From the NCBI GenBank assembly GCA_913062595.1, contig CAJXWT010000005.1:1-50353 (forward strand): DNA of 50,353 nt, written 5' to 3'. The notes under the pieces were generated by a model that was not told the DNA's origin, did no database searches, and saw nothing but the letters and a program-made list of their open reading frames with translations. Below, one piece after another: positions 2,399 through 41,538 of this stretch. This DNA is from an uncultured Fidelibacterota bacterium. GTDB lineage: Bacteria; Fidelibacterota; Marinisomatia; Marinisomatales; TCS55. A program made the position numbers and the translations under genes. Every line of letters starts with the position of its first letter. Within the stretch, counting starts at the first letter, position 1.

Positions 2399-3661
2399 TT
2401 ACGCCGGATCCGGACGGGGCGAACCGATTTTTATTTCATTTTGAAAATAATATGTCAGCAAAAATGATATAATGAAATAGAATATAAGTCCATAAACATA
2501 AAAACCACTTAAACCAAACCAGCTGTAATTTTGAAAATAAAGTAGGCTGAATCCCAAACTCAACTTCACAGACTCCGCTACCAGAGCATAGTTACGATGA
2601 TCTAACGTAGATGTGAATGAGAAAACGTTAACAATGAGCATGATGGCGTATAGATAATTCAATATGGCGCTAAAGCTGGGGATGATTGTGAACATATGAA
2701 ACATCAATATGATCGTTATATTAAGCTGTACCCATGAATTGGCAACCAAAAGAATCGAATTTTCAGTTTTGTACTTTATTTGTTTTTCTGGATTTGTAAC
2801 CTCTTGCAGGGGGTACTTTTCTTTGACATCCGCCGGCCGCCAGCCGGTGGGCATAAACCAGATCCGTAGCTTATCAAGGATTCGTTCCGTGTGCCACGCA
2901 TCTTTGAACAACTGCCACATATGTTTAAAGTTAATGATCACCGGATTCCAGGTCTGAGCCGGCTTGAGCGTTCCATATACTGGTTTTACATCATCAAGCT
3001 CAGGCTGGAAGGTCCCAAACAGCTTATCCCAGAATATTAAAATCTGACTGTAGTTTCTATCTATATATTCAGGGTTGATTGCGTGGTGTACCCGGTGATG
3101 AGATGGCGTAACCAGAATATATTCAAGTAAGCCCAGTTTACCGATCAGTTGCGTGTGGTACCAGAACTGCATAAACAGGTGCAGGGGTCCCAAAATTGCA
3201 AAAATTTTGGTGGGAATACCAAGCAGAGCTGCAGGAATCATAAAAATTGCAGCAAAGCGTATCGTATTTGAAATTGACTGGCGCAGAGCACAGGAAAGGT
3301 TAAATTCCTCGCTGCTGTGATGAATGATATGCCTGTTCCAAAAAATATTGACGCGATGATTCAATCGATGCATCCAGTACCCTGAAAAATCCTCAACCAC
3401 AAAAGCGATAACTACAGCAAGCCAGACTGGTTCCAGTTTATAGACGGTCATATGATCGACCAGCCAAGAATAGCTGATGATGGCAAAGCTGAATTTTACA
3501 CCATCACGAATCGTATTTGTGATCCCGGAGCTCAAACTTGAGATAACATCTGCTGAATGATTGATCTTTACCCCTTTGCGCTTGGCGGCTATCGCTTCAA
3601 CGAGAATAAGTGCCACAAAGGTGGGAATCGCAAAGAAAAGGGATGTTATGTAAAAGTTCAT
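2399..3661 (-). CDS. Sterol desaturase / fatty acid hydroxylase family membrane protein
   Basis: An integral membrane di-iron oxygenase of the fatty acid hydroxylase superfamily. Histidine clusters typical of the family are visible: HRLNH (about residue 97), HIIHH (about 109) and HHRVHH (about 188). They lie between hydrophobic helices. The first roughly 270 residues match the usual family length. The protein then continues with about 130 residues that include several more membrane helices and a short charged tail, so it is longer than a minimal hydroxylase. Bacterial relatives act on sterols, hopanoids, carotenoids or alkyl-glycerol lipids, and the sequence does not say which. It stands alone, convergent with the S9 peptidase and downstream of the secreted protein gene, separated from it by a terminator. 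Confidence 0.85.
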   Translation of the reverse strand: MNFYITSLFFAIPTFVALILVEAIAAKRKGVKINHSADVISSLSSGITNTIRDGVKFSFAIISYSWLVDHMTVYKLEPVWLAVVIAFVVEDFSGYWMHRLNHRVNIFWNRHIIHHSSEEFNLSCALRQSISNTIRFAAIFMIPAALLGIPTKIFAILGPLHLFMQFWYHTQLIGKLGLLEYILVTPSHHRVHHAINPEYIDRNYSQILIFWDKLFGTFQPELDDVKPVYGTLKPAQTWNPVIINFKHMWQLFKDAWHTERILDKLRIWFMPTGWRPADVKEKYPLQEVTNPEKQIKYKTENSILLVANSWVQLNITIILMFHMFTIIPSFSAILNYLYAIMLIVNVFSFTSTLDHRNYALVAESVKLSLGFSLLYFQNYSWFGLSGFYVYGLIFYFIISFLLTYYFQNEIKIGSPRPDPA

Positions 3662-3764
3662 TTCCGCAGTGTCTGTTTACCAGTGTTTCAACAAATTATT
3701 AGCCTAAAATGAATTATTCCAATAAAACAATATTACACCACGTCAGTAATAAATGTCCATAAAC

Positions 3765-3793
3765 AAAAAACCCCGTTAATGGACGGGGTTTTT
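3765..3793 (-). terminator. Rho-independent terminator after the secreted repeat protein
   Basis: The perfect inverted repeat CCCCGT / ACGGGG (3771-3776 and 3783-3788) with a six-base loop is flanked by A6 on one side and T5 on the other. It could stop transcription on both strands. It lies just past the stop of the minus-strand gene 3816-5051, so that is its likely client. Confidence 0.85.
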
Positions 3794-3815
3794 ATATCAA
3801 AATAGTCGGTTAATT

Positions 3816-5051
3816 TTATTTCAATAAAATCATCTTTTTGGACTGCCGAAAATTCCCTGCTTTAATGGTGTAGATATATACACCGGCAGCAACACCATGC
3901 CCATTATCATTGGTAGCATTCCAGCGATATGATCTGACTCCAGGATCCTGCCGTTCATTAACCAGCGTAGCAACTATGTCACCGCGTATATCAAAAACAG
4001 CGATCGTCACAAATTCCGCTTTCGGTAGTTCATAGCTGAAAGTTGTTATCGGATTAAAGGGGTTGGGATAATTCTGTGAGAGGGATATTTGGTCTGGCAA
4101 AGTTGCAGGTGCAGCAATACTCAGGATCGATCTTCCTGGTCCATTGACATAAGTATATTCATTACGTTTTCGAGGGCGCCACTCATCATTACGCCACCTG
4201 GACGAGACTGTTTCCATGACCATCCCATCACCAGAAAATGTATTCTCCCGCAAGGCGACATTATTCCACGCATCGGTACTGTCCACTTTTTCCAAAAGAA
4301 TTTCTACAGGGTTATGAGCATCATCGCGACTGACAGTTAGCCTAGCTCTAGTCACCCAACTGGCATCGATCCATTTATAAAACATTTTTTGAGATAGATC
4401 ACCGTTATCATCATAAGAATATTCAGTCTTGTGCCGTTCAGTCCAGTCACTATCGGTCCATTTATATCCCACTTTTACATCCCTCTCGTCACTATCATTA
4501 TATGAAAATTCCTGTAAATAACGATTGGTCCAGGTACTGTCTTTCCAACGGTAGTAGGTATTATTCACGCATAACCCGCCTTCGTATTGTAATTCGGTCT
4601 GGGATCGATTATGCCAGGAATCACCATGCCACTTCAGTCGCGTTTTTTGGGTCAGGTCACCGCCGTCGTTATAGTCGTATTCATGCAAGGAACGATTGTA
4701 CCAGGATCCATCCCAGTATACCTGTTTAGTACTTGAAGTAGGTGCGCCATTATCATTATTGGTATAAGATATATTAGCGCGCACTAACCATTCATTATCC
4801 CTGAATTTGTGAAATTCAGACTCCGTTAAAAAACCGCTGTCATCATACGATTTCAGCCATTGCCATTTATAATGCCAGGCGCTATCCCACCAGACTTGCG
4901 TCGTCCTAGTATCAAAGTCAATACTGTTTCGATAGGCAATGTTGCCCTCTTCCTCAGCAATAACTTCATCCAGCTGATCCGTCCCAAAACTGAAGGAAGT
5001 GATCATCGAAAGCATTACAATGAATTTTATACTTGTGAAATACGCTTTCAT
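3816..5051 (-). CDS. Secreted repeat protein with C-terminal YPNPFNP sorting domain
   Basis: Function unknown. An N-terminal signal peptide (about residues 1-23) is followed by about eight imperfect repeats of roughly 27 residues built on the pattern W-x-D-S-x-W-x-x-R ... E-Y-x-Y-D-D-x-G-D-L. This Trp/Tyr/Asp-rich pattern looks like a repetitive beta structure, comparable in style to RHS/YD or 'LVIVD' surface repeats, but I do not recognise a named family. Residues about 325-411 form a beta-sandwich sorting domain beginning NYPNPFNPITT and ending MILLK, of the type IX / FlgD-like kind. The protein is therefore probably exported to the cell surface. It has its own terminator and appears to be transcribed alone. 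AGAGGATCC lies upstream of the ATG as a weak ribosome site. Confidence 0.8.
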   Translation of the reverse strand: MKAYFTSIKFIVMLSMITSFSFGTDQLDEVIAEEEGNIAYRNSIDFDTRTTQVWWDSAWHYKWQWLKSYDDSGFLTESEFHKFRDNEWLVRANISYTNNDNGAPTSSTKQVYWDGSWYNRSLHEYDYNDGGDLTQKTRLKWHGDSWHNRSQTELQYEGGLCVNNTYYRWKDSTWTNRYLQEFSYNDSDERDVKVGYKWTDSDWTERHKTEYSYDDNGDLSQKMFYKWIDASWVTRARLTVSRDDAHNPVEILLEKVDSTDAWNNVALRENTFSGDGMVMETVSSRWRNDEWRPRKRNEYTYVNGPGRSILSIAAPATLPDQISLSQNYPNPFNPITTFSYELPKAEFVTIAVFDIRGDIVATLVNERQDPGVRSYRWNATNDNGHGVAAGVYIYTIKAGNFRQSKKMILLK

Positions 5052-10654: not shown

Positions 10655-11611
10655 TTAAAAATTAATGATCTTTCCTTGTTCAGCCACCTGAAAACCAGCA
10701 TTATTAAGTACCTTCCTGGCATTACTTCCAGGCTGGTACAATGGATTGGTATGATTGAAATGAATAAAATGAATTTTCTGCTTTTCCTTTATAGATAAAT
10801 TTGCGAATAATTGCATACTTTCAACAACGAATGGGTGCGGGATTTGGCTCATATTCCTTCCTGGCAATTCAGTCCCATCAAAAAATGTAGCATCCAAAAA
10901 TAAATAGTCATTTCTTTCTATTTCCGCAACGATGTCTTTTTGCCAGAGCTCCCATTTATCAATATCCGGAATAAACAGTACTGATTTATTTGGTCCCGAT
11001 ATATGAAAACCGACAGTTTCAGAATATTCATCGCGGTGCGGTACCAAAAATGGTGTGATTTTAATTTGATCGTTAATATTTATAATAACCCCATCCTGCA
11101 ATAGTTCAACATTAATGTTCTTCTTCGTTACTAATTGACTCCAGGGACCATTATCTGTAAGGAAATTCATCATTCGCGGCATGGCGTAAACAGGTATTTT
11201 ATTAGCCCCCATAACTTCAAGCCCTAAATGAGCTAAACCCGTATAATGACCAACATGAGCATGGGTCAAAAAAATACCGGCAATATTAACCGGATTTTCA
11301 CTGGCCGTAACATCATTGATCATTTGTAGCTGCTCACGAAAATCAGGAGTTGCATCAAAGATCCAGCATCTATTTTTAGCATTATCTACAATTGCAATCG
11401 ATGAGACCCAGCGGCGCAGTTCAGGTTTATTTTTAGGACCAATACAACATTTCTTCAAACAACCTGCTTGTGGATATCCGCCATCCTGGGCAACACCCAG
11501 AACATAAATAAATGTCTGATCTGGTAACTGATCCGTATCCTTCCCAATATCACAGGAACAAAAAAATATAACTAAACTCGCAGATAATAGTTGTTTAACC
11601 AAAAAACGCAT
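10655..11611 (-). CDS. MBL-fold metallo-hydrolase, PqqB-like lipoprotein
   Basis: A metallo-beta-lactamase-fold protein of 318 residues with an N-terminal lipoprotein-like signal (residues 1-20, ending FFCSC). The Cys-rich stretch GVAQDGGYPQAGC and the paired cysteines at 55-56 are typical of a PqqB-related subgroup seen in Bacteroidetes-type genomes. The metal motif is HAHVGH (117-122): the Asp of the canonical HxHxDH is Gly, as in PqqB relatives, so metal binding may differ. Later conserved elements are FLDATFFDG and HFIHFNHTNP. No other pqq gene is nearby, so a role in PQQ synthesis is not supported. First gene of the four-gene minus-strand cluster. The divergent selenoprotein gene starts 75 bases away. 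Confidence 0.8.
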   Translation of the reverse strand: MRFLVKQLLSASLVIFFCSCDIGKDTDQLPDQTFIYVLGVAQDGGYPQAGCLKKCCIGPKNKPELRRWVSSIAIVDNAKNRCWIFDATPDFREQLQMINDVTASENPVNIAGIFLTHAHVGHYTGLAHLGLEVMGANKIPVYAMPRMMNFLTDNGPWSQLVTKKNINVELLQDGVIININDQIKITPFLVPHRDEYSETVGFHISGPNKSVLFIPDIDKWELWQKDIVAEIERNDYLFLDATFFDGTELPGRNMSQIPHPFVVESMQLFANLSIKEKQKIHFIHFNHTNPLYQPGSNARKVLNNAGFQVAEQGKIINF

Positions 11612-11686
11612 CTTTTACACTTTAAAAAAATATTGCTCTAAACAATTTGCACCGGAGAACTTACACAAATATGGATAAATTAGACT

Positions 11687-13747
11687 ATGGGCAGAGACTT
11701 CTTCCAAATTCTTTTACCTATTTTCATCATCCTTTCTTCTATTGCTGGTAAAAACCTCATAGTACACGGCAGGTATGACCCGCAGAACAGGGAACTGCTG
11801 GATGTAAAATTCTCCGGGAATACCATGATTATTACGGGCAATCTGAACGGGACAGAATTCTATGATATATCCGATTCGTTGAATCCTATTCATCTTGCCA
11901 ACCTGGAAATACCTTTTGGTAACCAAAATCGGGCCTTGCCGAACTTTATCGCTGCAATTTCTGATACCATACTTTATTTATCTTCCCGGCAACGGGGTAT
12001 TGCAATCGTTAATATTTCGGACCCCTCCAACCCCCAATATATTGACATGGTTACCCAACCAGCTGGTTCAAACTACAGCTATGATGGACTAACGGTTCGT
12101 GATTCAATTCTATATGCTGCCGCCCATGAACATGGTGTAATTCTTTTCAATATCAGTTCACCTGAGTTACCCACCTATTATGGCCAGATTAATACGGAAA
12201 ATGCCTGGGGTACAGCCTTTTTTGATTCTTTGCTGATTATCATGGATGGTGAATTTGGTTTTAAGATTATGAATATCGCCGACCTCTCTAATCCAATTAC
12301 AATAGCGGATGTGTTTACAGAAGGAGCAACAAAGGATATGGCCCTGGATGGAGATCATCTAAACGTAGCAATGGGTAGTGACGGTATTGCCCGCTATGAT
12401 CTTTCGGACCCTTCCGATCCACAATTACTGGCCACCTATAATAGTGCTGGCTTCGCCAATAGAATCGCCCTCTTTAATGGCAAGATTGCCGTTTCTGAAT
12501 GGCTGGATGTAAAAATCCTAGAATACAATGGCAGTGAAATCGAACTGGTTGGTTATAAAAATACCGGATATCGCACAATGGCCATCAATACCAAAGGTAA
12601 TGTCATTTATTCCGCAGAATGGCGTCATTTACAGGTGCTGGAATACGGATCCATTTCCGGACCAGACCTGGACCTTAGTTCCCACGATATCAGTTTTCCG
12701 GAAATAAATATCGGAGAACAAGATACTATGCTGCTTTACTTAACTAATAATGGCAGCGAATTACTTGTGTTTGATTACGACTATTTTTCCCATGCAGATT
12801 TCTCTACTTCAACTGAACTAAACACATTAGCCGCTGGAGATTCAATTGTAGTTGATATCATTTACACAAAGTCTGGCCAAAACGCCACGGGCGTGTATAA
12901 CATTCCATCAAATGACCCTGACGAATCTCAATTATCTTGCGATATTTTGGGCAATTATGATGGCGTAAATATTGGTATGACTGCACCAGACTTTACCCTG
13001 CCCATTGCAGCCAACGGAACGGGGAATTTTAACCTCAATCAGCATTGGTCAAGTGCTGGTGAAATTGTGGTTATTGCCTTCTTTTCTCCTGGCTGACCTG
13101 TATGCAGTCCGGAGTTATCGGACCTGGAAGTTTCAATTTGGCAGGAATACAGTGACGATGTTGTCACCCTCATCGGTATAACTGCAGTTAATGAAGGGCA
13201 GATCAGCCAATTTGTGATTGATAATGGCCTCACCTTTCCTATTTTAAAGGATACGCGTAGTGGTCCTGGTATCGGTACAGGTGTTATTTATGATCAGTAT
13301 TATATTCCAAACCAGGGCTCACCCTACCCACGGGATTTTATAATCGGGACAGATGGAAATGTGTATTACGTAAATAACGAAATTGATACAGAATACATGA
13401 TCGCTGTAATAGAAATGCTCTTGGCTGGAGAAAATGTAAGTATTAAACCTGGAGAGAACATTATCACTCCAGAAATACAATTGGTTAAAGCCTACCCAAA
13501 TCCATTTAACGGATCCACAAACATCATTTATACTTTGTCAAAACCAGGTAATGTATCCATAAATATCTTTGATTTAACCGGTCGACTGGTATCAGGATTC
13601 GATCGGGGATTACAGCAAGCTGGGCGTCAAAATCTGCACTGGTCACCGAGAAACCAGAGAGCCGCGGGATTATCTTCCGGAATGTATATATATCAAATTG
13701 AAACGGGTAAAACCATAACTGATGGTAAAATGCTGTACCTGAAATAA
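11687..13747 (+). CDS. Secreted selenoprotein: beta-propeller, ASH-like domain, Sec-containing redoxin, sorting domain
   Basis: A single reading frame of 686 residues if UGA at 13094-13096 is read as selenocysteine (residue 470). Order: signal peptide (1-21); about seven LVIVD-like propeller repeats (about 25-325) with recurring NISDPSNP-type turns; an immunoglobulin-like ASH/'choice-of-anchor' domain (about 326-430); a TlpA/AhpC-TSA redoxin domain (about 431-600) opening TAPDFTLP; and a C-terminal YPNPFN sorting domain ending MLYLK. The active site reads FFSPG-U-PVCSPEL. UGA replaces the first Cys of CxxC, the second Cys follows, and the presumed cis-Pro is in SPYPRDF. The frame continues intact for 216 codons. 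A hairpin follows the UGA. A nonsense mutation of a Cys codon cannot be excluded by this gene alone, but the second case nearby argues for selenocysteine. It would act outside the cytoplasm, probably at the cell surface. Confidence 0.82.
13105..13126 (+). promoter_or_regulatory. Candidate bacterial SECIS hairpin for the UGA at 13094
   Basis: Downstream of UGA the perfect stem GTCCG (13107-13111) / CGGAC (13119-13123) closes a seven-base loop GAGTTAT. An alternative pairing adds CAG (13105-13107) with CTG (13124-13126) and leaves one bulged C. The loop opens with G, 16 bases after the UGA. This matches the spacing and the loop-G rule known for bacterial SECIS elements. The folding was done by eye. 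Confidence 0.65.
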
Positions 13748-13760
13748 AATTTCAGGTTTT
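13737..13760 (+). terminator. Rho-independent terminator of the secreted selenoprotein gene
   Basis: Perfect eight-base stem ACCTGAAA (13737-13744) / TTTCAGGT (13750-13757) with loop TAAAA and a following T run to 13760. The stop codon TAA (13745-13747) lies in the loop, so the stem begins inside the last codons. It separates this gene from the convergent thioredoxin-like gene. Confidence 0.7.
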
Positions 13761-13766
13761 ACTCAC

Positions 13767-14360
13767 TTAGTCCTTGAACTTTATCCCGCAACCCAACGCT
13801 TTTGTTGATGCATATTTTATTGTACTGCCGGTCAGCATCGCATCGATAGCATCGGCGACATATGGTTTTTTCACTTTATGTGGTTTTTTGGCATTATCAT
13901 CGATTGCACCGCGATAAACCAGTTGGTCCTCTGCATTGAATAAGTAGACATGGGGTGTCCTGGTAGCACCAAATTCTCGAGCCAGTTTCGCACCGCTATC
14001 CATGGCATAATAAAAATTATATCCTTTGTCCTTAGCATGCGCTTTCATTTTATCCATGCTATCCACGGAGCCAAAAGTTGTTTCGTTAGAATTCAACGCA
14101 ATCATGCCCACACCTTTAGACTGATATTTCTTAGCTAGTTCAACATAGCGGTCTTCCCATTTAATAACCCATGGGCAGGTATTGCAGGAAAAAATAACCA
14201 AAAGGCCATTCTCTCCCTTTGCTTCGCCTAATGATACTTTCTTTCCGCTAATATCCATCATTTTTACATCTCCCAGCGGTAAGTCAGAACCGAGATCTAA
14301 TTCTTCTGCTTGAATACCAAAGCAAAGTAATAATGTGACTACAAAAATTAACTTTTTCAT
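13767..14360 (-). CDS. Exported thioredoxin-like / redoxin protein with CNTC active site
   Basis: A periplasmic thioredoxin-fold protein of the AhpC-TSA/redoxin type, 197 residues. A signal peptide (1-18, ending IQA) is followed by the redox motif C59-N-T-C62 in FSCNTCPWV and by TPHVYLF with the presumed cis-Pro. This 'CNTCPWV / CNHCPYV' group is widespread and poorly characterised. It starts eight bases after the stop of the Sec-containing TlpA-like gene, with AGGAGT five bases before ATG, so the two form an operon. It keeps an ordinary Cys pair, and a natural guess is that it exchanges electrons with the Sec protein. This is inference. Confidence 0.88.
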   Translation of the reverse strand: MKKLIFVVTLLLCFGIQAEELDLGSDLPLGDVKMMDISGKKVSLGEAKGENGLLVIFSCNTCPWVIKWEDRYVELAKKYQSKGVGMIALNSNETTFGSVDSMDKMKAHAKDKGYNFYYAMDSGAKLAREFGATRTPHVYLFNAEDQLVYRGAIDDNAKKPHKVKKPYVADAIDAMLTGSTIKYASTKALGCGIKFKD

Positions 14361-14368
14361 GATGACTC

Positions 14369-14860
14369 CTATAAATTTATTGCTTTTTCTACCGTTTCAA
14401 TGAAGTGCTTTTCATGTTTTGAATTTTCCCAATAATCTACTATTGATCCTGATAATTTACCAAACACAATTGTAAAGGGCAGACTGCCAGTCCATTCCCT
14501 ATGAAAACCATTGATAAATTCTTCCCCAGGTTGGTCCTTAATATAAGATTGACCACTCACATCCATCGATTTCAGAAAATCTTTTACTTGTTTTTCCTCT
14601 TCAAGCCAATCGGCACTTACAAAAATTACCTTCAGGTCTTGATTGTATTTCTTGCCTAAACTATGAACAAACGGAAACTCCGCCATACAGGGACTTCACC
14701 ATGTTGCCCATACATTAATCAAAACCGCTTTTTTTCCCTTCTCTTCCTGTGCAGCAGCAAGTACGTCCTGGGCTGTGGCTCGCTCAAGGTTCAAACGATC
14801 ACAGCCATAATTAGAAAACAACGCTAGGTAAATAACTATTAGTTTTATATTATAATTCAC
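14369..14860 (-). CDS. TlpA-like selenoprotein (WATW-U-SPC), membrane-anchored or periplasmic
   Basis: A thioredoxin-fold protein of the TlpA/ResA type, 163 residues if UGA at 14698-14696 is read as selenocysteine (residue 55). The active site is NVWATW-U-SPC: in TlpA-like proteins this position is the first Cys of WCxPC, and here only that codon is UGA. The second Cys (58), the following MAEFP and the cis-Pro in GSLPF are all present, and the frame runs on to TAG at 14371-14369. The start is uncertain. GTG at 14860 gives a hydrophobic N-terminus (IKLIVIYLALF) ending in a Cys at residue 20 with a poor lipobox, and no clear ribosome site is seen. It lies 27 bases after the aminotransferase gene and directly before the CNTC redoxin gene. 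A gene caller that stops at UGA would report only the C-terminal 105 residues. Confidence 0.82.
14670..14684 (-). promoter_or_regulatory. Candidate bacterial SECIS hairpin for the UGA at 14698
   Basis: Twelve bases after the UGA the sequence GGCGGA-GTT-TCCGTT can fold with stem CGGA/TCCG, extended by two G-U pairs, and a loop starting with G (+18 from the UGA). It is weaker than the element in the neighbouring gene. Both share GGAGTT starting at +15, partly because both proteins need a Glu codon there. The folding was done by eye. Confidence 0.45.
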
Positions 14861-14887
14861 TAGGTTTCAGAATGCTCTTAGTTAGTG

Positions 14888-16309
14888 CTATTTCAGTAAC
14901 TGAATCCGTTTACTAGCCGCTAATTCACCCTGGATCAAGTTACATATATAAATGCCAGATGCTACTGGCTTGCCAAATACATTCTTTCCATCCCACGTTA
15001 AAGTATGGCTACCAATACCAATGGTACCGCTTACTATGGTTTTAATTTTTCGACCAAGTGTATCATAGATAACCAAGGATACTTTTTCATCACTCAAAGT
15101 AGAAAATTTGATCGTACAACTAGAATTAAATGGATTTGGATATACTGTATGCAATCCGAAAATCGCAGGTTGAATATTATTAACAGTGGTCTGTAAATCC
15201 AATGCAGCGGCCAGGGCAGTTAAAAATCCATTCATTTCATCTACAGTGCCAGTAGATACACGCAAATGCTGAGGCATATCCCAACCAGTCCTAACCTGAT
15301 AACCAGAATCTGCAAGTGCATTCAGAACAGCGCCAGCGTCCGTGCCCGTATCTACCATGATATAATTGGTCTCTGATGGAATATATTGCAGTCCCAAGTC
15401 GGTGAAACCAGTGTATAAAATCGTTTTCGCATTGATATTAAGAGAAACAGTATCACTGATATGATCCAAATCATCCAAACCAGCAATAGCAGCAGCCTGA
15501 GTTGCCCGGCTCACAGTAGCATAAAGTTGTGTATCGCTTATTTCGTCAGTTAGTTCAGTTGATGCCAGTGTGTAACCCACTCTTGCCCCAGCCAATCCGT
15601 ACGCTTTTGATAATGTGCGTATAATTACGATGGCAATACCCTGATCTATATAGGGCACACAACTTTCATAGTTTGTTGTCTGGACATATTCATGATAGGC
15701 TTCATCAACACACACAACCACCCCATCAGGTACCTCAGCTAAGAATGAAGCCATATCATCCTTATTGATTATTCTGGCCAAAGGATTATTGGGATTTACC
15801 AATGATATTAATGTTGTATTATTTGTAATAGCACTCAGAATTCCATCCAGATCAATAATGTAATTTTCATCCACAGGTACATATACAACCGTAGCACCAT
15901 TTGCAATCGCCTCATTCGCTATTTGTGTATAAGAAGGTGTAGCTGTAATGACTTCATCTCCTGGTCCCAGGAAAGCATCAGCAACTTTTTGGATCATTTC
16001 GGTCGCCCCTGCACCCACACACACATTGTCCTGATTTAAATCAAAATTATCAGCCACTGCATTTTCCACATTACTATTTAACCAATCTGGGTAGCGGTGC
16101 GTCAAGGCTGCTTCATCTCGTAGCGCTGCTAAAGCCAAGGGAGATGGACCAAGCGGATTTTCATTATAACAAATTCGTCCAACATAATCATTAGGATCAA
16201 TCGTTGAAAATGGTCGTGCATGAATTCGGCCGACACCAGGGAGCACCATTGCACTAAATACAGCAGCTGAATGCACAAATTCACGCCTAGAAAGTGTTGT
16301 TTTACTCAA
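14888..16309 (-). CDS. Exported histidinol-phosphate-aminotransferase-like PLP enzyme with Tat signal and sorting domain
   Basis: A fold-type I, class I/II aminotransferase most like HisC. The PLP lysine is Lys235 in RTLSKAYGLAGARVGY. Further family marks are CYNENPLGPSP near the N-terminus, GAGATEM, PSYTQIANEA, NPNNPLARI and VDEAYHEYV. The N-terminus carries a twin-arginine signal (SRREFV, then a hydrophobic stretch to IHA). The C-terminal roughly 80 residues are a beta-sandwich sorting domain starting VYPNPFNS and ending RIQLLK. The combination implies a folded, cofactor-loaded enzyme exported by Tat and then moved to the cell surface. I prefer TTG at 16309 as the start, because ATG 16372 would overlap the upstream gene by 58 bases and give an unusually long pre-RR segment. 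No his genes are nearby, so a histidine-synthesis role is unlikely. Confidence 0.82.
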   Translation of the reverse strand: MSKTTLSRREFVHSAAVFSAMVLPGVGRIHARPFSTIDPNDYVGRICYNENPLGPSPLALAALRDEAALTHRYPDWLNSNVENAVADNFDLNQDNVCVGAGATEMIQKVADAFLGPGDEVITATPSYTQIANEAIANGATVVYVPVDENYIIDLDGILSAITNNTTLISLVNPNNPLARIINKDDMASFLAEVPDGVVVCVDEAYHEYVQTTNYESCVPYIDQGIAIVIIRTLSKAYGLAGARVGYTLASTELTDEISDTQLYATVSRATQAAAIAGLDDLDHISDTVSLNINAKTILYTGFTDLGLQYIPSETNYIMVDTGTDAGAVLNALADSGYQVRTGWDMPQHLRVSTGTVDEMNGFLTALAAALDLQTTVNNIQPAIFGLHTVYPNPFNSSCTIKFSTLSDEKVSLVIYDTLGRKIKTIVSGTIGIGSHTLTWDGKNVFGKPVASGIYICNLIQGELAASKRIQLLK

Positions 16310-39169: not shown

Positions 39170-40471
39170 TTAGTTGAAATTATCATCCATTAATACCTTA
39201 TTTAAAGTTTCAACCAATTGATCAGTATTATCATTGGTAAACACCATTGGTGGTTTGATTTTTAGAACATTATGATCTGGACCATCGGTGCTTATAAGTA
39301 TTCCATGATCTTTCATATCATTCGCTATTTTTTCCGCCTCATCACTTGCAGGGGTCAGTTTTTCAGGATCTTTTATCAATTCTATACCAAAAAATAGACC
39401 ACGTCCCCGCACATCACCAATAATATTATGCCTTTGTTTCAAATCATTTAATTGGTCCATTAAATACGAACCCACCTGTAACGCATTTTCTTGTAATTTT
39501 TCTTCTTCTATTACTTTCAGCACGGCTCGACCGACAGCGCAAGATACAGGGTTACCTCCAAAAGAATTAAAGTATTCCATACCATTGTTAAATGCATCAG
39601 CAATTTTTTTAGTTGTCACCACTGCAGATAATGGATGACCATTACCCATGGATTTTCCCATTGTTACAATGTCTGGCCGTGCATTCTCTGATTCGAAACC
39701 CCAAAAATGGGACCCTACCCTGCCAAAACCAATCTATACTTCATCAGCAATGTATAAGCCACCGGTTTGCTGTACTTTTGTACTAGCTGCAGCTAAAAAC
39801 CCTTCTGGAAAAAAGATCTGGCCACCGCAGCCCAGTATTGCCTCGGCAATAAAAGCCGAAACCTGTTTATTATCATCGTGTAAAACATCAAGGATCTGCT
39901 GGACACAATCAGCATATTTTAAAGCAATATCACCATCGTTGGACCTGTATTTACCCCGATATGGATCCGGCATTGGGATCTGGTGCACAAAATCTGGTGA
40001 TCCTGCACCACCCGGACCATCAAATTTATACGGACTTACTTCAATTGTGGCCTTTGTATGACCATGATAGGCACCTGCAATCACAATCGTTTGATTGCTG
40101 CCAGTATAATTCCTGGCCATACACAAAGCCAGGTCATTGCTTTCGCTCCCTGAATTGGTGAAATAACAAACATCCAGTTTCGCTGGTAATTTATTGGTCA
40201 ACTCTTCAGCATACGTAACAATATTGTCATGGAGGTACCTGGTATTGGTGTTCAATAACCTGTTTTGTTCCTCCAGGGCCGCAAGAACACGGGGGTGACA
40301 ATGACCCACATGACTGATATTATTCACTGCATCAAGATATTGCCTGCCATCGCTGCCATATAAATATTGTCCTTTTCCTTTTACGATATGCAATGGTTCA
40401 TGATAAGAAAGACTTAAAGATGGACCGATATATTGGCACCGGAGTTTCTTGATATTCTCAGTGCTAAGCAA
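39170..40471 (-). pseudogene. Class III aminotransferase-fold phospho-lyase (AGXT2L-like), interrupted by an in-frame TAG
   Basis: A PLP-dependent class III aminotransferase-fold enzyme of 433 codons. It resembles the ammonio-phospho-lyases AGXT2L1/ETNPPL (phosphoethanolamine) and AGXT2L2/PHYKPL (5-phosphohydroxylysine): HVGHCHPRV, FTNSGSESNDLAL, AYHGHTKATIEVSPYK, and the PLP Lys273 in [11 protein letters not shown]. Codon 246 (39736-39734) is TAG where the conserved motif DEVQxGFGR needs Gln, so a CAG-to-TAG change is the simplest explanation. The frame is otherwise intact on both sides. Truncation would remove the PLP lysine. TAG also ends a normal gene here (7620), so general reassignment is unlikely. 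A nonsense mutation or a sequence error fits. It follows its partner kinase gene by six bases. Confidence 0.82.
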
Positions 40472-40477
40472 AATACC

Positions 40478-41503
40478 TCAATGGAAAGTTTTATCCACAA
40501 CTTGGTCTGACCAGCCCTTCAGATCCGCATTCTTCATTTTTCTCAAGAAAGCCCAGGCCTGATCTTCGGTTACTGTAATATATTTATTATCAGGAAATAA
40601 CTGTTTGCGGTAGGCTGCCATCGTTACCGAAACGCACAGGCGTAGGCAAATAAAATACATGATCACACTGATTTCCAATTCCGTTAATGGAAATACCGCT
40701 TGATACGCCTTAATTAACTCCGCGGCAAGACCTATCGGATCAGGATTATTTATGACCAGATAAGCGAGACAGATAGCAGGTTCACAGATAATATAAGTAT
40801 GGACCATATCACCAAAATCAATGATACCATGGGCACGATTATCTTTATTAACGATTACATTGTGGTCATTGCCATCATTATGAATAACTGCCCTGTTTAA
40901 TTCATGACTGATCGGAACAATATTTTTTTCATATTCCTGAAGGAAGTGTTGGATAATTAATTGATCTTCTTTAGAACGAATATTATCCTGATTATTTATC
41001 AAGAAATCTGTTTGGGCTACATTCCATGGAAAAGACCGTTTAGCTGCTGGATGTTCAAAATCCTGTAGTGCAAGATCCAATCTGCCAAGCAAATAGCCAA
41101 GATCAATAATTAAACCATTCGTTTGTTTTCCCAGGTCTTTCATTAATTCACCTGGAACATATTCCACCATACGAATATAATGCTTTTCATTAGAAGCAGT
41201 TTCATGGTGAAAAATAAGTTCATTATCCAATGTATTTACTGTACGAGGTAATTGGATTTCAGGGTCATACAAATATATGTGTGCGAGGGCGGCATGCTGC
41301 ATTTCCAATACATCGAATGATTCAGCAGCATGAGAGATCTTCAAAACGTATTTTGGCTCGGCTTTTTCCTTTAATAAAAAATTTTGGTCCCGTTCGCTCG
41401 TAAGAGCTGTAGCAGATAAATCTAATCCATATACATCTCTAACTATGCTTCGAGCTGCCTTTCTTGAAATATTTGGTCCTGCTGTGTTGAAAATCGAAAG
41501 CAT
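40478..41503 (-). CDS. APH-fold small-molecule kinase, AGPHD1/hydroxylysine-kinase-like
   Basis: A cytoplasmic kinase of 341 residues with the aminoglycoside phosphotransferase fold. Lys55 is in YVLKIS, the catalytic loop HNDGNDHN is at 208-215, and the metal motif DFGD at 229-232. Its place directly before an AGXT2L-like phospho-lyase matches the known animal pair AGPHD1 (hydroxylysine kinase) and PHYKPL. Bacterial homologues are also known fused to, or next to, such lyases. The pair would phosphorylate a hydroxy-amine (5-hydroxylysine, or alternatively ethanolamine-like or homoserine-like compounds) and then eliminate phosphate and ammonia. The substrate is inferred from family and context only. 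Confidence 0.8.
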   Translation of the reverse strand: MLSIFNTAGPNISRKAARSIVRDVYGLDLSATALTSERDQNFLLKEKAEPKYVLKISHAAESFDVLEMQHAALAHIYLYDPEIQLPRTVNTLDNELIFHHETASNEKHYIRMVEYVPGELMKDLGKQTNGLIIDLGYLLGRLDLALQDFEHPAAKRSFPWNVAQTDFLINNQDNIRSKEDQLIIQHFLQEYEKNIVPISHELNRAVIHNDGNDHNVIVNKDNRAHGIIDFGDMVHTYIICEPAICLAYLVINNPDPIGLAAELIKAYQAVFPLTELEISVIMYFICLRLCVSVTMAAYRKQLFPDNKYITVTEDQAWAFLRKMKNADLKGWSDQVVDKTFH

Positions 41504-41538
41504 AAAATTCTTTTTAGTTTAGTTTTATCTCTGTTGGA

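Follow-up and report, generated by a model that had tools for sequence, protein, structure and literature searches.

A predicted selenocysteine-containing redoxin joined to a beta-propeller and a type IX sorting domain in Neomarinimicrobiota

The window, i.e., the whole stretch of 50,353 nucleotides analysed here, belongs to a metagenome-assembled genome (90% complete) from Neomarinimicrobiota, an abundant ocean phylum that is uncultured. Its forward strand carries a reading frame at 11687-13747 which runs for 469 residues, meets a TGA at 13094-13096, continues for 216 codons, and ends in TAA. The TGA is the sole interruption of the frame, and the chance probability of an open run of 216 codons is ~2.5e-6 at the composition of the window. 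The TGA falls on the first position of the UxxC motif of a redoxin domain (FFSPG-U-PVC). Redoxins with selenocysteine (Sec) are a familiar class of proteins. A preliminary description of this DNA had placed a UGA at the first Cys of the redoxin motif with the frame open for 216 codons beyond it, and our analysis reproduced both. The features of the gene are as follows.

11687-13747, forward strand: focal gene, predicted selenoprotein of 686 residues with Sec as residue 470; signal peptide, beta-propeller, Ig-like domain, Sec-redoxin, and type IX secretion (T9SS) sorting domain
11687-11755, forward strand: putative signal peptide, hydrophobic N-terminus, about residues 1-22, MGRDFFQILLPIFIILSSIAGKN; the N-termini of relatives are alike, and the model has a helix at 4-19
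11753-12649, forward strand: beta-propeller with LVIVD repeats (PF08309), about residues 23-320; all-beta in the AlphaFold2 model, with propeller matches in Foldseek
12668-12952, forward strand: Ig-like (ASH/HYDIN/choice-of-anchor-D-like) beta domain, about residues 328-422; Pfam and NCBIfam matches below cut-off, strands in the model
12965-13390, forward strand: redoxin domain (AhpC/TSA, ResA-like) with UxxC; PF00578 at 1.4e-14, PF08534 at 2.1e-12, profile match to ResA structures
13094-13096, forward strand: UGA codon predicted to be read as Sec, residue 470
13107-13123, forward strand: putative SECIS hairpin G-UCCG-GAGUUAU-CGGA-C; its CGGAGTT core occurs also in a neighbouring UGA gene
13493-13747, forward strand: T9SS C-terminal sorting domain (Por_Secre_tail); PF18962 at 37.6 bits (cut-off 27), TIGR04183 at 45.1 bits (cut-off 23)

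The union of a propeller, a redoxin, and a type IX-like sorting domain in one chain, as originally proposed, was borne out by Pfam matches above cut-off (AhpC-TSA, 54.6 bits against 26; Redoxin, 47.5 against 26.6; LVIVD, 24.2 against 20.2), and by the presence in the same genome of the T9SS translocon SprA (611 bits) and the sortase PorU (573 bits). Among NCBIfam models, none scored above cut-off in the focal protein except the sorting domain. The assignment of an ASH-like domain fared less well, as Pfam ASH (14.6 bits, cut-off 27) and HYDIN Ig (20.8 bits, cut-off 25.5) both stayed below threshold, though the model has a beta-rich domain there; the resemblance is at the level of fold only. The AlphaFold2 model, built from 36 homologues (mean pLDDT 85.4, pTM 0.77), comprises an all-beta propeller-like region at ~23-320 (pLDDT mostly 83-96), the beta domain at 328-422, the redoxin, and a C-terminal beta domain. 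In U470-P-V-C473, U470 lies just ahead of the active-site helix (473-486 in the model), and these two are the only cysteine-type residues retained in all 36 aligned sequences. Foldseek matches to the whole model were dominated by generic propellers, PorZ being the top match, while the redoxin profile was nearest to the solved structures of ResA (1e-16), followed at lower scores by bacterioferritin comigratory protein and by Prx structures.

We then looked for relatives in 245 Neomarinimicrobiota genomes using a profile of the focal protein and three relatives in which Cys was written at the Sec position, so that Cys forms would be equally findable. The search returned 48 relatives in 47 genomes (46 besides that of the window), each with one TGA, and direct inspection placed it at the first position of UxxC in 48/48, at amino acid identities down to 29%. 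The alignment at residue 470 that the preliminary description had proposed as a check thus gave no random residues; the Cys homologues that it had expected did not appear, as none of the 48 full-architecture relatives from the 245 genomes has Cys at this codon. The next profile matches after these 48 were to the propeller alone or the redoxin alone. The same taxonomic family contributes three of the full-length relatives (identities of 67, 37, and 37%), all with a single TGA in the same place. The tree of the relatives has deep divisions: one family is set apart from the rest by an internal branch with 1.74 changes per site. The collection-wide scan beyond the phylum consisted of two peptide patterns, and the family has been seen so far in one phylum. 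To our knowledge, it is unusual for a redoxin selenoprotein to lack a Cys form in as many as 48 relatives, and this absence suggests that selenium is required and not merely better. Separately, we observed a truncated copy in genome G034 (L129, about 3245-3956) which holds the first third of the gene (231 residues, 90% identical to G039) and whose similarity ends abruptly; it is either a relic or an assembly join.

Downstream of the UGA, the hairpin TCCG-GAGTTAT-CGGA at 13108-13122, with a loop starting in G (G13112) 16 bases past the UGA, was found as first described. Codons +5, +6, and +8 after the UGA are CCG, GAG, and TCG in 48/48 sequences, and codon +7 is TTN even where it encodes Leu, which fixes the hairpin as UCCG-GAGUUNU-CGGA with its stem beginning 11 nt past the UGA. 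The background usage of these codons in the same genes is only 0.21 for CCG, 0.30 for GAG, and 0.095 for TCG. Columns restricted to a single codon number three among 45 degenerate columns with a conserved amino acid, and all three are inside the hairpin; codons +1, +2, +3, and +9 vary freely in the 48 sequences. Such fixation of synonymous codons is indicative of an in-gene SECIS element. The folding energy of the hairpin is unremarkable (z = 0.37 for 60 nt, -0.13 for 40 nt, and -1.48 for 23 nt), the invariant stem offers no covariation to measure, and an Rfam scan of 11600-15000 gave no family matches. The SECIS search that had been suggested is answered at synonymous sites and is not significant by folding energy alone; it is conservation, and not folding energy, that argues for this putative element. 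Over the full 2.37 Mb of the genome, the pattern TGA-N6-TGY-N4-CGGAGTT-NN-C has two matches, which both lie in the window (the focal UGA, and a UGA at 14698 on the reverse strand), and the reversed-pattern control in the same genome has 0.

The machinery for Sec is encoded in the genome of the window. A tRNA-Sec was detected at 66.4 bits (cut-off 47), with which ARAGORN agrees (anticodon TCA); selA (512 bits) and selB (370 bits) adjoin each other; and selD (391 bits; L017, contig C63 of G000) has an in-frame TGA of its own (SHGSG-U-ACKIG), so SelD is probably itself a selenoprotein in this organism. A genome lacking sel genes had been named in advance as the finding that would overturn the proposal, and all four genes are present. 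Across the 47 genomes with relatives the machinery is found in every one, as tRNA-Sec in 38 and as SelB above the curated cut-off in the other nine. That the UGA is instead a true stop, which would leave a 469-residue propeller protein and, after it, either a remnant or a redoxin with a start of its own, is formally possible, and a GTG start exists at 13214. Such a start would omit the active site, however, and a genuine stop does not account for a codon that is TGA and never TAA or TAG in 48/48, for the in-frame continuation in all of them, for a UxxC motif invariant across the codon, for the SECIS conserved at codon level, or for Sec machinery in 47/47 genomes; we regard it as highly improbable. 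A genome-wide code change by which UGA would encode another amino acid (Trp or Gly) accounts for the open frame only, and its probability is smaller still. TGA is the ordinary stop of 8/33 genes in the window, so the code has not been reassigned; moreover, a tRNA-Sec with the TCA anticodon and selA/B/D are present, and codon 470 corresponds to the residue that attacks in a CxxC-type site. Pseudogene, read error, and code change were all considered and ruled out on the strength of the TGA in 48/48, the SECIS codons, the sel genes, and the TGA stops elsewhere. Reading of UGA 13094-13096 as Sec is thus very strongly supported by comparative sequence evidence. Elsewhere in the window, at 39734-41518 on the reverse strand, an ORF of 346 codons and one of 247 share a frame on either side of a TGA at 40480 with no redox motif nearby; these are probably two adjacent genes.

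The tails of the relatives are more variable than the rest of the protein. The T9SS sorting domain, which the preliminary description had reported, is confirmed in the protein of the window and is not universal: it is found in 32/48 relatives, and 14/48 end in dockerin. Against a query with a T9SS tail, 31 sequences (that of the window included) aligned as far as its C-terminus, and the G116 protein, also counted among the 32, has a leucine-rich-repeat insert followed by the sorting domain. The remaining two relatives are one whose tail has neither sorting domain nor dockerin and one cut by the contig end. Dockerin tails were assigned by HMM in the 3 of 14 tested and by the same repeat pattern in the remainder.

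L115-L118, L120-L124, L130, L132, L143, L145, L146: dockerin type I repeats in place of the T9SS domain

Since 14/48 relatives carry dockerin, the means of anchoring to the surface varies within the family, and the two kinds of tail look interchangeable. By these alignments, the conserved core is the propeller, the Ig-like domain, and the ResA/Prx-like Sec-redoxin, and the attachment module is exchangeable. Export of the focal protein is well supported, and display at the surface would follow from its C-terminal domain. Alternatively, the same selenoprotein might stay periplasmic or be held by a scaffold outside the cell, with its C-terminal domain acting only as a general attachment module. 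The 14 relatives with a Dockerin_1-type tail and the one with neither tail are in keeping with this, but the sorting domain in the protein of the window is well above both curated cut-offs and the genome encodes SprA and PorU, so that we consider such a location quite unlikely.

Next to the focal gene, on the reverse strand, lie two further redoxins.

13767-14360, reverse strand: exported redoxin with CNTC motif and no UGA, PF08534 at 59.6 bits; between the focal gene and the second UGA gene
14369-14860, reverse strand: second selenoprotein candidate, a TlpA/ResA-like redoxin (WATW-U-SPC) with a GTG start; Thioredoxin_8 at 38.5 bits
14673-14698, reverse strand: UGA (14698-14696) of the second gene with its SECIS-like element, GCGGAGTTTCCGT, from the genome-wide pattern search

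The second UGA redoxin (14369-14860), which did not figure in the preliminary description of the focal gene, is reduced by ordinary gene calling to a C-terminal part of 105 residues. Its short hydrophobic N-terminus ends in cysteine (LFSNYGC), making it a probable lipoprotein, and the congener G002 keeps its UGA (WATWUSSC). In the phylum at large, an extra redoxin gene occurs within the examined flanks of 15/48 loci; none was seen in 33/48, many of whose flanks are short, and a redox partner is therefore not obligatory. Eight genomes (G010, G039, G065, G066, G111, G124, G128, and G130) have a redoxin as the gene directly after the focal one, on the same strand, and this adjacent partner in other genera has a T9SS tail in the example tested. 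Partner redoxins come in Cys forms (n = 7) and in UGA forms (n = 4) with the following motifs.

L138 (G111): SWUSFC
L149 (G188): SWUTNC
L151 (G189): SWUTIC
L153 (G191): SWUTVC

After the codon, a GCGGAG element (GCGGAG..TCCG) is present in all four UGA forms and in none of the seven Cys forms. These UGA/Cys pairs are an independent natural control for the predicted SECIS and offer a compact natural test of what the SelB of this lineage recognises. The surroundings of the focal gene otherwise differ by genus, and no single phylum-wide arrangement that would make a conserved operon was found. Ten loci (L159, L160, L140, L137, L142, L144, L143, L145, L148, and L114) have a DUF3179 lipoprotein close to the focal gene, often together with an outer-membrane-like protein starting CCSL/CCTL. 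A DUF6029 outer-membrane-like protein lies upstream of the focal gene in L125-L128 (G194-G198), L151, and L153, with CxxC redoxins further upstream in several.

We interpret the focal protein as a thiol:disulfide oxidoreductase that depends on selenium and acts outside the cytoplasm, probably displayed on the cell surface; we give this reading a probability of about 80%. SelB and Sec-tRNA would read UGA 13094-13096 as Sec under the guidance of the in-gene hairpin at 13107-13123, and the 686-residue product would be exported by the Sec pathway. The type IX system would most likely recognise the C-terminal domain and carry the protein over the outer membrane, so that its propeller, Ig-like domain, and Sec-redoxin would come to lie on the outer face of the cell. 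In that place, Sec470 would attack and Cys473 would resolve, as in a thiol:disulfide oxidoreductase with a UxxC site and a ResA/Prx-like fold. The propeller may be a docking platform for substrate or partner proteins, which is a guess, and the exported redoxins next door could plausibly be its redox partners. The main rival to this interpretation is that the same selenoprotein is a surface peroxidase (Prx-like) which removes hydrogen peroxide or organic peroxides. AhpC/TSA is indeed the best Pfam match, the weaker profile matches include bacterioferritin comigratory protein and Prx structures, and Sec suits peroxide chemistry. The nearest profile matches are nevertheless to ResA, and in known Sec-peroxiredoxins the motif is TxxU, in which Sec comes second (PMC13188914), whereas the focal motif is UxxC with Sec first, as in thiol:disulfide enzymes; the Sec-peroxiredoxin model NF040737 gave 15.9-25 bits against a cut-off of 270. 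Peroxidase activity is hence unlikely, and thiol:disulfide exchange is the chemistry that the motif suggests. Conceivably, the phylum might run a dedicated surface selenium redox system, in which the obligate-Sec propeller redoxin, the Sec/Cys-switching T9SS-tailed redoxin, the DUF3179 lipoprotein, and the outer-membrane protein would form an extracellular thiol/electron relay fed through the envelope; we put this forward tentatively, as a doubtful proposition. Ordinary gene calling would split the focal gene, so this trait, which is spread through the phylum, has probably been annotated as fragments.

Both UxxC Prx-like selenoproteins and Sec-redoxins fused with further domains are already known (PMC1088965, PMC2398784, PMC13188914). 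The Prx-like thiol:disulfide selenoproteins (PF00578, UxxC; 'Prx-like 1', ocean metagenomes) resemble the focal protein in redoxin fold, in a UxxC motif with Sec as its first residue, and in a SECIS just downstream; they are listed as redoxin-domain proteins, whereas the focal protein is a four-domain exported one, seen in one phylum so far and with no Cys form found. ResA, TlpA, and StoA are likewise exported with a CxxC site and are the nearest structures by profile (ResA 1e-16), but the focal protein has Sec for the first Cys, a propeller and an Ig-like domain in front, and a sorting domain behind. The focal redoxin lies under all NCBIfam redoxin cut-offs, including that of NF041054, a ResA-like WAxxUGC selenoprotein which also bears Sec but has UGC where the focal motif is UPVC (score of 25 bits, cut-off 300). 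In the fusions from the Global Ocean Sampling (Prx-PP2C; Prx-like 3/Unknown_3), a Sec-redoxin is similarly fused, with phosphatase or Cys-bearing unknown domains as partners; in the focal family the Sec-redoxin is combined with a propeller, an Ig-like domain, and a tail of T9SS or dockerin type, and there is no family-wide Cys outside UxxC. Propellers that are T9SS cargo (choice-of-anchor B/LVIVD; PorZ by fold) also precede a sorting domain, without redoxin or Sec; the focal protein scores 19.8 bits against the cut-off of 100 of the choice-of-anchor B model TIGR04312, and its fold match to PorZ is generic for propellers. A propeller-fused or type IX-sorted selenoprotein is absent from the published inventories examined, supplementary lists aside, and may have been sighted unlabelled in earlier metagenomes; our literature search found no selenoprotein with a type IX tail and no described Marinimicrobia selenoproteome. 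In essence, the kind of selenoprotein is known, and what is new is the architecture, a propeller-bearing Sec-redoxin with a type IX address.
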